60,113 nucleotides of DNA from Candidatus Gastranaerophilales bacterium (lineage in GTDB: Bacteria > Cyanobacteriota > Vampirovibrionia > Gastranaerophilales > JAILCC01), in assembly GCA_028696075.1 (NCBI GenBank), contig JAQVHS010000012.1, positions 1 through 60,113 of the forward strand, written 5' to 3'. Position 1 is the stretch's first letter. Every line of letters starts with the position of its first letter. Of the stretch, positions 21,106 through 25,372 are shown piece after piece. A model generated the notes under the pieces. The model made no database searches. It was given only the letters and a program-made list of their open reading frames with translations, and was not told the DNA's origin. Made by a program: the position numbers and the translations under genes.

Positions 21106-21837
21106 TTAGTAATAATTAATACGCCAGCCGTCTTCAACAATCCTGCCCGTACATGTAAGGCTATGATTTGCACCGCCTCTCTCGCAGGTTCCTGCTGCTT
21201 GCCAATGACCGTTTATATTATCAAATTTTCCGCCCATGGGATACAAATATGCAGGATAATTATCCAGTATTATAAACCCAAAAACATCTCTGCCGTAGGT
21301 ATTAGGTCCTCTAGCGCCGTCCAGGTCAACTATGAATGTGCCGCAGCCTTTGGCAAATTTTTGATATTTTATGGCATTCTCATTTGTTGCAACTAACGTT
21401 TGGCAGTTGGTACCATAAGAAGTTATAGAATAAGTTTTGCCTTTTACGTCCATAAACTTGTAGCTGTTTTCGGCGTTAAAATCTACAGTGCCTATGTTTG
21501 TTTTTGGATTTTTTGACCAGCAATCACCCGCTGCACCGGAACATTCTTTGACCGTTTTATAAACTTTCGCCAGCCCGTTTCCTGCAACAAGCGGATTATT
21601 AGCAAAAAGATTTGTGGCGGATAATTTTCCACTTGCGCCGTCTTTTAATGCAAATGCCGCGAACGCTTTGTTCCCCTCATTCATAACATCTCTTACGCCT
21701 GAGAGGTAAATTTGTTTTTCATAAGTAAGAAGAAGAGAAGGCAAAGTCAGTACCATAAGTATTCCAAGTACGGTAAGGGCGAGCAAAACTTCTGCCAATG
21801 AATAAGCGTTAGAAATATTTTTCATAAAATCATCCAT
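21106..21837 (-). CDS. type IV pilin-like protein
   Basis: This 243-aa protein has a prepilin-type N-terminus: a short leader MDDFMKNISNA, then YSLAEVLLALTVLGILMVLT, with Glu at +5 and a hydrophobic helix (13-33). The predicted peptidase site has Ala, not the usual Gly, at -1. The C-terminal globular domain is Gly/Asn-rich and has six cysteines that could form disulfides (CSGAAGDC, CQTL, CGTF, CERGG, LTCTG). It lies 120 bp from the divergent pilT, fitting a minor pilin or pseudopilin. A TATAAT upstream may be its promoter. Confidence 0.82.
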   Translation of the reverse strand: MDDFMKNISNAYSLAEVLLALTVLGILMVLTLPSLLLTYEKQIYLSGVRDVMNEGNKAFAAFALKDGASGKLSATNLFANNPLVAGNGLAKVYKTVKECSGAAGDCWSKNPKTNIGTVDFNAENSYKFMDVKGKTYSITSYGTNCQTLVATNENAIKYQKFAKGCGTFIVDLDGARGPNTYGRDVFGFIILDNYPAYLYPMGGKFDNINGHWQAAGTCERGGANHSLTCTGRIVEDGWRINYY

Positions 21838-21957: not shown

Positions 21958-23031
21958 ATGGTTATTGATGAGTTGTTGGAATTAGTAATTGATAATAATG
22001 CAAGCGATTTGCATTTGTCAGTGGGTTTACCGCCTATAATAAGGGTACATGGAGAATTATTAAAAACGGAATTGCCTGATTTAACGGCACAAGATGTAGA
22101 ACAGTTGGTTTTTTCTATGTTAACTGCAGAGCAAAGACGTTACCTGGAACAGCATTTGGAACTTGATTGCAGCTATGGGATATTCGGCTTGGGCAGATTC
22201 AGGGTGAATATTTACAAAGAAAGAGGTACCTACGCGGCAGCATTAAGAACCGTAGCTTCTGTTACACCTACTATAGAACAACTGGGGCTGCCTACAATTG
22301 TGAAAGACTTAACGAGAAAGCCAAGAGGCCTGATTCTTGTAACAGGTCCTACCGGAAGCGGTAAATCTACAACCCTGGCGGCAATGATTGATTCCATTAA
22401 TACCAGCCATGCCTGCCATATTCTTACAATTGAAGATCCTATAGAATTTGTGCATAATTCCAAAAAGGCTTTAGTCCACCAAAGAGAGCTCGGCGCTGAT
22501 ACAAAAACGTTTGCAAATGCCCTGAGAGCCTCATTAAGAGAAGACCCTGACGTTATACTAATCGGTGAAATGAGAGATTTGGAAACTATCCAGCTGGCTA
22601 TAACGGCGGCTGAAACAGGACACCTTGTGTTCGGAACTCTGCATACTTCAAGCGCTATTCAAACAATAGACAGAATTGTAGACGCTTTTCCTCCAGGGCA
22701 GCAGCAGCAAATCAGAGTTCAATTATCAACAAGCTTGGTAGCGGTGCTTGCTCAGACACTTTTACCTAAAAGAACGCCTGAAGGCAGGCAGGATGGCAGG
22801 ATTTTGGCTCAGGAAATTATGATTGTTACTCCCGCTATTGCCAACCTCATAAGAGAAAGCAAAACTATCCAAATGTACAGTTCCATTCAAACAGGAGCGC
22901 AACATGGTATGATTACTTTAGAAGCTTCGTTGAAGAATTTGTACGACAGAAAATTGATTGCCTACGAAGATGCTATGATGGTAACTTCAAGACCCGATGA
23001 TTTAGCTAAGCTGCTTGGGTACAATACGTAA
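21958..23031 (+). CDS. pilT: pilus retraction ATPase PilT
   Basis: This 357-aa hexameric ATPase depolymerises type IV pili at the inner membrane. It has Walker A TGPTGSGKSTTL (129-140), the Asp-box region TIEDPIEFVH, Walker B ASLREDPDVILIGEMRD with catalytic Glu, and the His box GHLVFGTLHTSSA. The PilT-specific C-terminal region (RILAQEIMIVTPAIANLIRE) is present. AAGGAGAG precedes the ATG. It starts an operon with the PilM-PilN-like and PilO-like genes. Confidence 0.95.
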   Translation: MVIDELLELVIDNNASDLHLSVGLPPIIRVHGELLKTELPDLTAQDVEQLVFSMLTAEQRRYLEQHLELDCSYGIFGLGRFRVNIYKERGTYAAALRTVASVTPTIEQLGLPTIVKDLTRKPRGLILVTGPTGSGKSTTLAAMIDSINTSHACHILTIEDPIEFVHNSKKALVHQRELGADTKTFANALRASLREDPDVILIGEMRDLETIQLAITAAETGHLVFGTLHTSSAIQTIDRIVDAFPPGQQQQIRVQLSTSLVAVLAQTLLPKRTPEGRQDGRILAQEIMIVTPAIANLIRESKTIQMYSSIQTGAQHGMITLEASLKNLYDRKLIAYEDAMMVTSRPDDLAKLLGYNT

Positions 23032-23045
23032 TGGATTAAAAACTT

Positions 23046-24785
23046 ATGGATTTTGATATAAAACAAATATTGGATAATTTGCAGCATAAGAAGAAATTGG
23101 TTTCGATTAATATTTCTCCTAAATCTGTTGTTGAAATTGCTGAAATTGAAAAACAAACTCATAAAATTATTAATTATACAAGCGTTCCGATTCAATACAA
23201 CAGCTTTTCCAAGCAAATAGAAAATTTTGCCGACTTTGAATCCGCTCTAAAAAAAGCTTTTTTAGAGCTGGGTTTCAGCCTTAATTCTTCCGTATATTTA
23301 TCCATTCCTACTGTAATTACCAGCCATCAGGTATTTCCGGCTTCTTTGGAAGATGACTCTATTAAACTTTCTTTAACCGCAGAGGTTGAAAAAAACTACA
23401 TATTTAAGAAGTATGACCCTTCCATAAGCTATTATAGAATTCCTACCGAAAATCCTGACAATGCTTTTTTATGTTATACGGCTATTCAGTCGGAACAATT
23501 GGCACAAATAGTCAGTGTTCTTGAAGGAGTGGGTATAAAAATACTTGCTGTTGATTCGAATTATTCTTCGATGCTGCGCGGTATTATAGCAAGTAATAAA
23601 ATAGAACGTTTGATTGTAGATGAGAACAGAAAATGGAATGTTGTTTTAATAACTCCAAATAGCTACAATATTCTTGCTATGTCAGGTTCTAATCTTATTG
23701 AAATCTTTGAAGAGCCTCTTGCTGTCAAATCTTTTAATGAAGATGAAGTTTATCAGGTTATTGCAGATTCTCTTAATCTTTCTTTAGTGAATTATCCCGC
23801 GGACCAAATGGTTATAGTGAGCCAGTCTGATGATGTTTCAGCTGAAATTCTTATGTCTTCTGTCAACTCCGACGTTGTTATGTCTTATATAGAAGATAAC
23901 AAATTTACAAAGAAACCGATTGTTGAAGTAGGATTTAATGTTGTACAATCAAAAGCTCAAAAAATTTCACCCGAAATAGTAGGTATATCATTATGGGCGG
24001 AGCATCCTGATTCTTTCAGGTTTAATTTTGTTGATACCGTAGTAGAGTTGAGTACCGATTCTATTCTTATTAACATAATGGGAAGAGATGTAGAACTTAC
24101 CTCCAAGCTGCTTGAAACTATTTCGATTATTCTTGTAGTTTTAATAGTTTTATTTGTAGGTGTTTTATACGGACTCGGTTATATGCTTGAAAGCGCCCAA
24201 AATAAAGCATATGAAGATGTAGTGGAAAAAGTCGGAATTATAGAAAAATCCTTAGAAAATAAGCCTCAGGCAAGAGGTATAAGTCTTGAGGAATTTTTGC
24301 AAAATACTTATACTAATAATAAAGATATGTCAAAATCCTATAACGCTATAGGGGAAGAAATCCCGGCAATGCTATGGATTGAAGAGTTCGAAATGGGTGA
24401 TTCTTTGGCTCTTTATATGAAAGGGTCAGCTTATACAATGGATGATGTTTTGAATTACTATGACAGTTTAAAGCGTCTCGGAAGATTTAACGATTTAAAG
24501 ATAAGTTCGCTAAAAGTGGCGGATACTACCTATAACACCCAGGATTATTCCGTTTCACCGCAGGTGGAAAAAGTTTATGAATTTGTCTTGGGGCAGCCTG
24601 TTTATTCATTATTTAACGCAGTGCCGGCTGCAGCCGGCACTGCTCAAACTCAAGCAGGCACTGACCCTAATGCGGCTGATATTTCCGGCTCTAAAAAGGT
24701 TAATCCTGCTAAGCCGGCCCCTGCACCTTCAGACTCAGAATTGCCGCCTCCGCCGACAACATTACCTAAACAGGATACTAACTAA
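23046..24785 (+). CDS. PilM-PilN-like fusion protein
   Basis: This 579-aa protein appears to join two type IV pilus assembly proteins. Residues 1-345 resemble the actin-like PilM fold (KLVSINISPKSVVEIAEIE start, then VYLSIPTVITSHQVFP and a second half from ERLIVDENRKWNVVLI), although the nucleotide-binding loops look degenerate. A single membrane helix (356-380) and a coiled-coil then ferredoxin-like region (385-515) match PilN topology. A Pro/Ala/Thr-rich tail (525-579) follows. Normally PilM is cytoplasmic and binds the N-terminal peptide of separate PilN; here they would be one chain. It overlaps the PilO-like gene by one base and is downstream of pilT. Confidence 0.7.
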   Translation: MDFDIKQILDNLQHKKKLVSINISPKSVVEIAEIEKQTHKIINYTSVPIQYNSFSKQIENFADFESALKKAFLELGFSLNSSVYLSIPTVITSHQVFPASLEDDSIKLSLTAEVEKNYIFKKYDPSISYYRIPTENPDNAFLCYTAIQSEQLAQIVSVLEGVGIKILAVDSNYSSMLRGIIASNKIERLIVDENRKWNVVLITPNSYNILAMSGSNLIEIFEEPLAVKSFNEDEVYQVIADSLNLSLVNYPADQMVIVSQSDDVSAEILMSSVNSDVVMSYIEDNKFTKKPIVEVGFNVVQSKAQKISPEIVGISLWAEHPDSFRFNFVDTVVELSTDSILINIMGRDVELTSKLLETISIILVVLIVLFVGVLYGLGYMLESAQNKAYEDVVEKVGIIEKSLENKPQARGISLEEFLQNTYTNNKDMSKSYNAIGEEIPAMLWIEEFEMGDSLALYMKGSAYTMDDVLNYYDSLKRLGRFNDLKISSLKVADTTYNTQDYSVSPQVEKVYEFVLGQPVYSLFNAVPAAAGTAQTQAGTDPNAADISGSKKVNPAKPAPAPSDSELPPPPTTLPKQDTN

Positions 24786-25372
24786 TGGAAATAATTAATT
24801 TTCTTACATCTGCTAAAAATATTAAATCAATGGTTATTATTATAATGGCAATTATAATTGTGGTATATTCTTCAATTTTGCTTGTTGTGCCTAAATGGCG
24901 TGATTTTATTGATTTGCTTGAAAAAACCAAAGAATCCGAAGTTCAGCTTGAGAGCTATCAACAAAAACTTGATGCAAAAAGAAGAGAAGAAAAACTTGTG
25001 GAAAAAAAGACGGAGACTGTTCCTGTAGAAGTATATAAATCACCGTTAAGTAATTTACCCGTAGAAAGCTCTTCTATAGATTTAGTTACCAATGTAATCA
25101 GTATGCTTGAAAAGAACAATAATAATATAATAAATATTTCTTATACCCCTAATCCTGCTGCTGTTAACGAGATGACGGTGCCTGTCAGCGTAGGGGTTGT
25201 TGAATTGAAATTAAAGCTTGATTCCACTTATGTTTCTTTAAAGAATTTTTTAACAACACTTTATTCATATAATTATCTATGTTCTGTAAAGGCTATGCGA
25301 ATAGTTCCGTTTCAGGATAATAAAAATATGCTTGATGTTGATATAATAATTTGGGTATATGTAATGAAATAA
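24785..25372 (+). CDS. PilO-like pilus assembly protein
   Basis: This 195-aa protein has one N-terminal membrane helix (about 15-34), a coiled coil (38-75, EVQLESYQQKLDAKRREEKL), and a C-terminal alpha/beta domain of about 95 residues. That is the topology of PilO, which pairs with PilN to form the alignment ring linking inner-membrane motor and secretin. Sequence identity is too low to call by motif; size, topology and position after the PilM-PilN-like gene (one-base overlap) support it. No secretin gene follows. Confidence 0.65.
   Translation: MEIINFLTSAKNIKSMVIIIMAIIIVVYSSILLVVPKWRDFIDLLEKTKESEVQLESYQQKLDAKRREEKLVEKKTETVPVEVYKSPLSNLPVESSSIDLVTNVISMLEKNNNNIINISYTPNPAAVNEMTVPVSVGVVELKLKLDSTYVSLKNFLTTLYSYNYLCSVKAMRIVPFQDNKNMLDVDIIIWVYVMK

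Follow-up and report, generated by a model that had tools for sequence, protein, structure and literature searches.

A single open reading frame of a Candidatus Gastranaerophilales genome, located at 23046-24785 on the plus strand, encodes a real fusion of PilM, a membrane helix and PilN. Taken as a whole, the locus is best explained, with good confidence on our part, as a GspL-like PilM-PilN fusion belonging to a second filament system and standing beside a PilT from a lost type IVa pilus (T4aP). The window, which is the whole stretch of 60,113 nucleotides that was analysed, is one contig of a 1.84-Mb genome in 21 contigs. An earlier note, made from the letters alone, had read the product as a PilM-like region followed by a single membrane helix, a PilN-type domain and a Pro-rich tail, with pilT upstream and a PilO-like gene next, and both this layout and these neighbours were recovered, as shown in Table 1.

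Table 1. Coordinates of the fusion gene, its parts and its neighbours in the window.
Feature	Position	Strand	Description
pilMN fusion gene	23046..24785	+	579 aa, contig JAQVHS010000012.1; ORF limits exact
PilM-like actin-fold domain	23046..23999	+	Residues 1-318; hhalign, Foldseek; ATP-loop residues lost
Retained PilN N-terminal (INLL-type) motif RFNFVD	24018..24035	+	Residues 325-330, directly past the fusion joint
Single transmembrane helix	24111..24179	+	Residues 356-378; hydropathy and model helix 353-410
PilN-type coiled coil and periplasmic ferredoxin-like domain	24180..24596	+	Residues 379-517; hhalign, 3jc8, PF05137
Pro-rich disordered C-terminal tail	24597..24782	+	Residues 518-579; pLDDT about 30-40; aligns poorly among relatives
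pilT, PilT-family retraction ATPase	21958..23031	+	357 aa; TIGR01420 488 bits, cut-off 319
pilO-like (GspM-like) gene	24785..25372	+	195 aa; ATG shares 1 nt with the pilMN stop

The Kyte-Doolittle profile of the protein contains one hydrophobic helix at about 355-379, peaking at 3.05 at residue 359, and no second 19-residue window above 1.6 was obtained beyond this region, while the tail carries 11 Pro within the final 59 residues. The gap between the end of pilT and the start of pilMN is 14 nt. Adjoining pilT in divergent orientation on the minus strand, 21106-21837 encodes a 243-aa protein with a prepilin-type N-terminus (N_methyl E 0.004), the only prepilin-type ORF from a motif scan of the window.

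The pilMN protein alone gave no PilM or PilN match in Pfam and NCBIfam scans, which included TIGR01175, PF11104 and PF05137, and no match to PDB sequences with phmmer, so that homologues were needed to settle the fusion claim. The alignment used for this contains 29 members, namely the window protein and 28 relatives from the order. Compared by hhalign, its profile matched stand-alone PilM of the phylum over residues 5-189 (E 3.5e-12) and stand-alone PilN over residues 350-517 (E 9.8e-13), with PilO against PilM as the negative profile-profile control giving E 0.27; the PilM alignment leaves residues 190-320 of the PilM domain uncovered. Searched against the PDB, the same profile found PilN of M. 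xanthus (3jc8, E 1.8e-7). The family models proposed in the earlier note were negative for the window protein and gave matches among its relatives, with PF05137 (PilN) present in 26 of 29 (E up to 1; best 3.9e-10) and TIGR01175 (PilM) in four of 29 (best E 1.1e-10, under the cut-off). The AlphaFold model has a mean pLDDT of 77, about 80-96 across residues 21-320, and a pTM of 0.57. When this model was submitted to Foldseek, the first nine PDB matches were all PilM, the best being the P. aeruginosa PilM:PilN(1-12) complex 5eou (5eou_B, E 6.6e-18), with T. thermophilus PilM 2ych at E 3.1e-15; the PilM structures were followed by FtsA and the GspL cytoplasmic domain (GspL/EpsL 1yf5, E 3e-8). The TM-scores of the model against PilM are moderate, ranging from 0.54 to 0.66 by target. 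The fusion claimed in the earlier note is thus borne out by profile-profile comparison, family models in relatives, the PDB profile match and Foldseek, and a PilM-like fold is indeed present in the N-terminal part, within the region 1-345 in which that note had placed it.

The position of the joint was located by comparison with unfused proteins. In twelve stand-alone PilNs of the phylum, an I-N close to the N-terminus (within INLL, INLI or INFL), one Trp and one Gly are invariant, and the residues N7, W116 and G149 among these correspond to N327, W444 and G460 of the fusion, the first being kept in 27 of 29 fusions and the other two in all 29. The motif xNFL at 326-329 forms a conserved island of 2.9-3.9 bits amid columns of about 1-2.3 bits. 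In a joint alignment of the fusions with concatenated stand-alone PilM and PilN, this motif aligns with the PilN start MKTININLIG, and the last PilM stretch (IGLA...) runs into the INLL motif within about 15 residues, indicating that the PilM C-terminus is joined to the PilN N-terminus; the joint is constant in position across relatives. The PilN docking motif, now internal, is probably docked in cis in the PilM groove.

A homologue of the fusion was found in 182 of the 192 genomes of the order, covering 40 of its 45 genera, and nearly always as one copy per genome in an open frame without stops, so the fusion is not due to chance. A search of genome contigs for related loci obtained two close relatives only, and the family also includes a Candidatus Gastranaerophilales MAG obtained from horse faeces, so that the gut is most likely the habitat of the present organism, a non-photosynthetic relative of cyanobacteria. 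The order-wide search gave no fusion match in the f4 drafts G025, G029 and G031 (80-89% complete) and in the f1 draft G003. The genome being a draft in 21 contigs, one may ask if a broken or mis-assembled gene pair had lost its stop codon in metagenome assembly, but with nearly always one open frame and a constant joint over so many genomes and genera, this is hardly conceivable and was rejected. In all 29 loci, pilMN is directly followed by a gene whose product has 183-247 aa and a membrane helix at its N-terminus; 20 of these products match PF04350 (PilO) and six match GspM_XpsM. The model of the PilO-like protein matched 3jc8_Oa (1.8e-6), P. aeruginosa PilO 2rjz (1.3e-5) and also structures of Amuc_1100 in Foldseek. 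The pair pilMN-pilO (29/29) is the constant unit elsewhere in the order, and pilT adjoins it in family f1 only (3 of 30 loci).

The degenerate nucleotide-binding loops described in the earlier note were observed in all 29 fusions. In the first loop, N, S or A stands in place of Asp, and L, V or I occupies the Lys position, while the second loop is without D-x-G and the Gly-rich third loop without glycines. Of the 13 stand-alone PilMs sampled from the phylum, 12 have likewise lost the Lys, suggesting that some of the degeneration is independent of fusion, but in all 13 loop one retains an acidic residue and loop three a Gly. Lys-26 of T. thermophilus PilM is important for ATP binding (PMC6325625). 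Judged from the loop residues, the fused PilM domain is likely to be independent of ATP, as had been supposed, although the loss of the Lys is shared with most stand-alone PilMs.

The secretin, PilB and PilC are absent from the window, as stated in the earlier note, and all three were found elsewhere in the genome, which holds one secretin, one PilB, two PilC-like proteins, two PilT-like proteins and one PilD. The type IVa pilus machine parts PilB, PilC, PilD, PilT, PilMNO and secretin are therefore all present. No separate pilM or pilN, which would have spoken against the fusion, was found in the genome with PF11104 and PF05137, and the profile of the relatives detected one locus only, the fusion itself. 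A cluster of lipoprotein, secretin, PilB and PilC-like genes is located on contig C8, whereas the second PilC-like gene is on C2, the second PilT-like gene on C6 and the prepilin peptidase on C4. The labelling of PilB, PilC and secretin as T4aP or T2SS is uncertain because their scores are under the equivalog cut-offs. For the C8 secretin, GspD and PilQ score alike, the platform protein scores higher with GspF (317 bits) than with PilC (259 bits), and the ATPase scores higher with PilB than with GspE, so the HMM scores do not decide between a T4aP variant and a T2SS. The lipoprotein-like protein ahead of the C8 secretin (L071:7165-7941) has 259 aa and the lipobox VSC, and its place suggests PilP or GspC; it gave no family match and no GspC match. 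The second PilC/GspF-like protein (L072:6655-7737, contig C2) has 360 aa, and no further pilus gene was recognised next to it. On contig C6, flagellar rod/hook-like genes, named by eye (L073:9097-10888), lie about 3 kb from the second PilT-like gene, so that some flagellar components may have been retained in this genome.

The assignment to a second filament system was obtained from comparison with related families. Stand-alone-sized PilM was found in all 14 tested genomes of families f3, f4 and f5, and not in the two f7 genomes tested. Six such loci were read, and they contain pilM, pilN, two small membrane-type genes in the place of pilO/pilP, and a secretin. Reading both loci in four genomes (G007, G011, G012 and G016) showed that each carries the unfused operon as well as the fusion. 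About 2.0 of the 2.7 Mb of G016 were surveyed, revealing pilMNOPQ (L126), pilB-pilT-pilC (L177) and pilMN-pilO (L132), together with a second lipoprotein-secretin-ATPase-platform cluster (L234). The ATPase of the window's genome shares 50.5% identity with the L234 copy and 36.5% with the canonical G016 copy, and its platform protein 46% and 30%, respectively, whereas the pilT of the window shares 68% with the pilT of the canonical G016 pilB-pilT-pilC cluster, suggesting that the genome has lost its T4aP except for pilT. It is most likely that the lineage kept a second, GspL-type filament system, of which the fusion is a part, and retained pilT from the lost one. We infer the link of the fusion to the C8 cluster from the genome having no other cluster of this kind and from their co-occurrence in G016, rather than from gene adjacency. 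The designation "type IV pilus operon" in the earlier note is too strong, as the adjacency of pilT is confined to family f1 and the second system is distinct from the canonical T4aP. In G016, a Tad-type pilus cluster with a CpaF-like ATPase, two TadB/C-like genes and a secretin, all named by eye (L223:8213-15655), is present in addition to the two other type IV filament systems.

These comparisons also bear on whether the protein could be the PilMN of an ordinary retractable T4aP, its genes merely scattered and no second system present. Such a reading agrees with pilT adjoining the fusion in family f1, with PilN and PilO rather than GspL and GspM models being the main Pfam matches, with PDB best scores that place the ATPase with PilB/PilF and the secretin with PilQ, and with the lipobox in the sequence of the PilP-like protein. 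We consider it quite improbable, since every tested f3-f5 genome has a stand-alone-sized PilM, four genomes hold both sets, and the canonical pilB and pilC of G016 are far less similar to those of the present genome than is its pilT. The protein might alternatively be a true GspL of a divergent T2SS, with GspM as its neighbour and a periplasmic pseudopilus secreting proteins. The gene order lipoprotein-secretin-ATPase-platform and an L-M pair are in line with this, as are the higher GspF score of the platform protein, the GspM_XpsM matches among the PilO relatives, and a GspM-like gene in G332 whose neighbours encode a PilM-like protein of 472 aa and a PilB/GspE-like ATPase, the latter being closest to that of the present genome in a small comparison (42.6% identity). 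However, GspL models (NCBIfam, Pfam T2SSL/GspL_C) are absent from the matches of the window protein and from those listed for the 29 relatives, most of the neighbouring proteins match PilO, the C8 lipoprotein is without a GspC match, and the genome has two PilT-family genes, a T2SS not being known to have a retraction ATPase; a true GspL is thus unlikely in our view.

For the GspL-like fusion in a second filament system, the following mechanism is proposed. The PilM-type actin-fold half, with its nucleotide-binding residues lost, would be cytoplasmic, and the periplasmic PilN domain would pair with its putative partner, the PilO/GspM-like product of the next gene. Through the fusion, the periplasmic PilN-PilO ring would be connected with both the extension ATPase (PilB, contig C8) and the PilC/GspF-like platform protein, and this ring in turn may be linked to the secretin via the PilP-like lipoprotein. 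The second system would be organised like a T2SS, having lipoprotein, secretin, ATPase and platform in one cluster and the fusion and the PilO gene in another, and in f1 the PilT inherited from the lost T4aP probably acts on it.

Family f8, whose genomes are mostly 4-9 Mb, also has fusions; these are about 580-700 aa long, and their PilM is recognisable. In G258 of this family, the fusion is located inside a pilB-pilT-pilC ... pilMN-pilO cluster, and the pilB shares 58% identity with its canonical counterpart in G016. The f8 fusions nest among stand-alone T4aP PilMs in the PilM tree and in the PilM + PilN tree, for which reason a class-wide single fusion was dropped, and the fusions of the order's kind form one side of a branch in the PilM tree (support 100/98). 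A single origin of all fusions was not rejected by the AU test with PilM only (p 0.113) and was rejected with PilM + PilN (p 0.024, with the caveats of long branches and odd composition), which favours two origins. On these sequence trees, the f8 fusion within the T4aP operon probably arose independently. In f8, L101:2564-4639, L103:1711-3744 and L104:1534-3597 have a third, C-terminal thioredoxin domain with a WCxPC-type motif, periplasmic by topology (PF00085 E 4e-16 and 7e-20), and a literature search for a PilM-PilN-thioredoxin triple fusion returned nothing clearly relevant. PilM_2 matches were also seen within 487-669-aa frames at an apparent pilus locus of small-genome phylum members (f41; L143, L144). 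A wider history, in which two independent fusions occurred in one class, the first in a second GspL-type system kept by gut lineages after T4aP loss, with f1 recruiting the orphaned PilT, and the other in the T4aP operon of another lineage, some with a periplasmic thioredoxin, is offered as a tentative possibility that we stop short of favouring.

The fusion architecture itself is already known from GspL, Clostridioides difficile PilMN and Akkermansia Amuc_1101. GspL (EpsL, PulL, OutL) likewise combines in a single chain a cytoplasmic actin fold of PilM type, a membrane helix and a ferredoxin-like domain in the periplasm, and is paired with GspM, and EpsL structures are among the Foldseek matches of pilMN; in contrast to GspL, the pilMN profiles match PilM and PilN, the INLL-type motif is kept and the genome has PilT-family ATPases. 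PilMN is regarded as the GspL orthologue (PMC4471445; PMC3815138). PilM and PilN are also fused in C. difficile, in a type IV pilus system that likewise has PilO (PMC6916266; PMC6143707), although that system, likened here by description, is a monoderm T4aP with one pil cluster, whereas a secretin and seemingly a second system are present here. The Amuc_1101 family of Akkermansia (NF045709), whose model describes a PilM-like pilus protein over 608 positions, is from another phylum; it was matched by three of 29 relatives (best E 6.2e-7), and the relatives remain far under its cut-off of 650 bits, with f8 and f9 fusions scoring 102 and 27 bits. By its number, Amuc_1101 is presumably the neighbour of the PilO-like Amuc_1100, for which a role in host signalling has been reported. 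The best structural matches of the N-terminal half, 5eou and 2ych, are naturally stand-alone, ATP-binding PilMs, unlike pilMN with its degenerate loops, and the annotation of the 5eou chain names both PilM and PilN for a single molecule.

Previous work on type IV pili in this group listed pilA, B, C, D and T and not M and N (PMC5877343), which fits the failure of the standard models on this protein, and a literature search returned no paper that mentions PilM alongside Gastranaerophilales. As the PilM/PilN protein of this genome is invisible to current family models, such gut bacteria are likely scored as being without an assembly platform. What makes the fusion interesting is the conservation of its docking motif, the loss of its ATP site and a history that involves two systems. 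For the role of PilM-PilN docking and of PilM ATP binding in filament assembly, relatives with fused and unfused sets in one genome provide a natural comparison, and the order-wide covalent join and the lost ATP-loop residues suggest that neither PilM exchange nor a nucleotide cycle is needed there.
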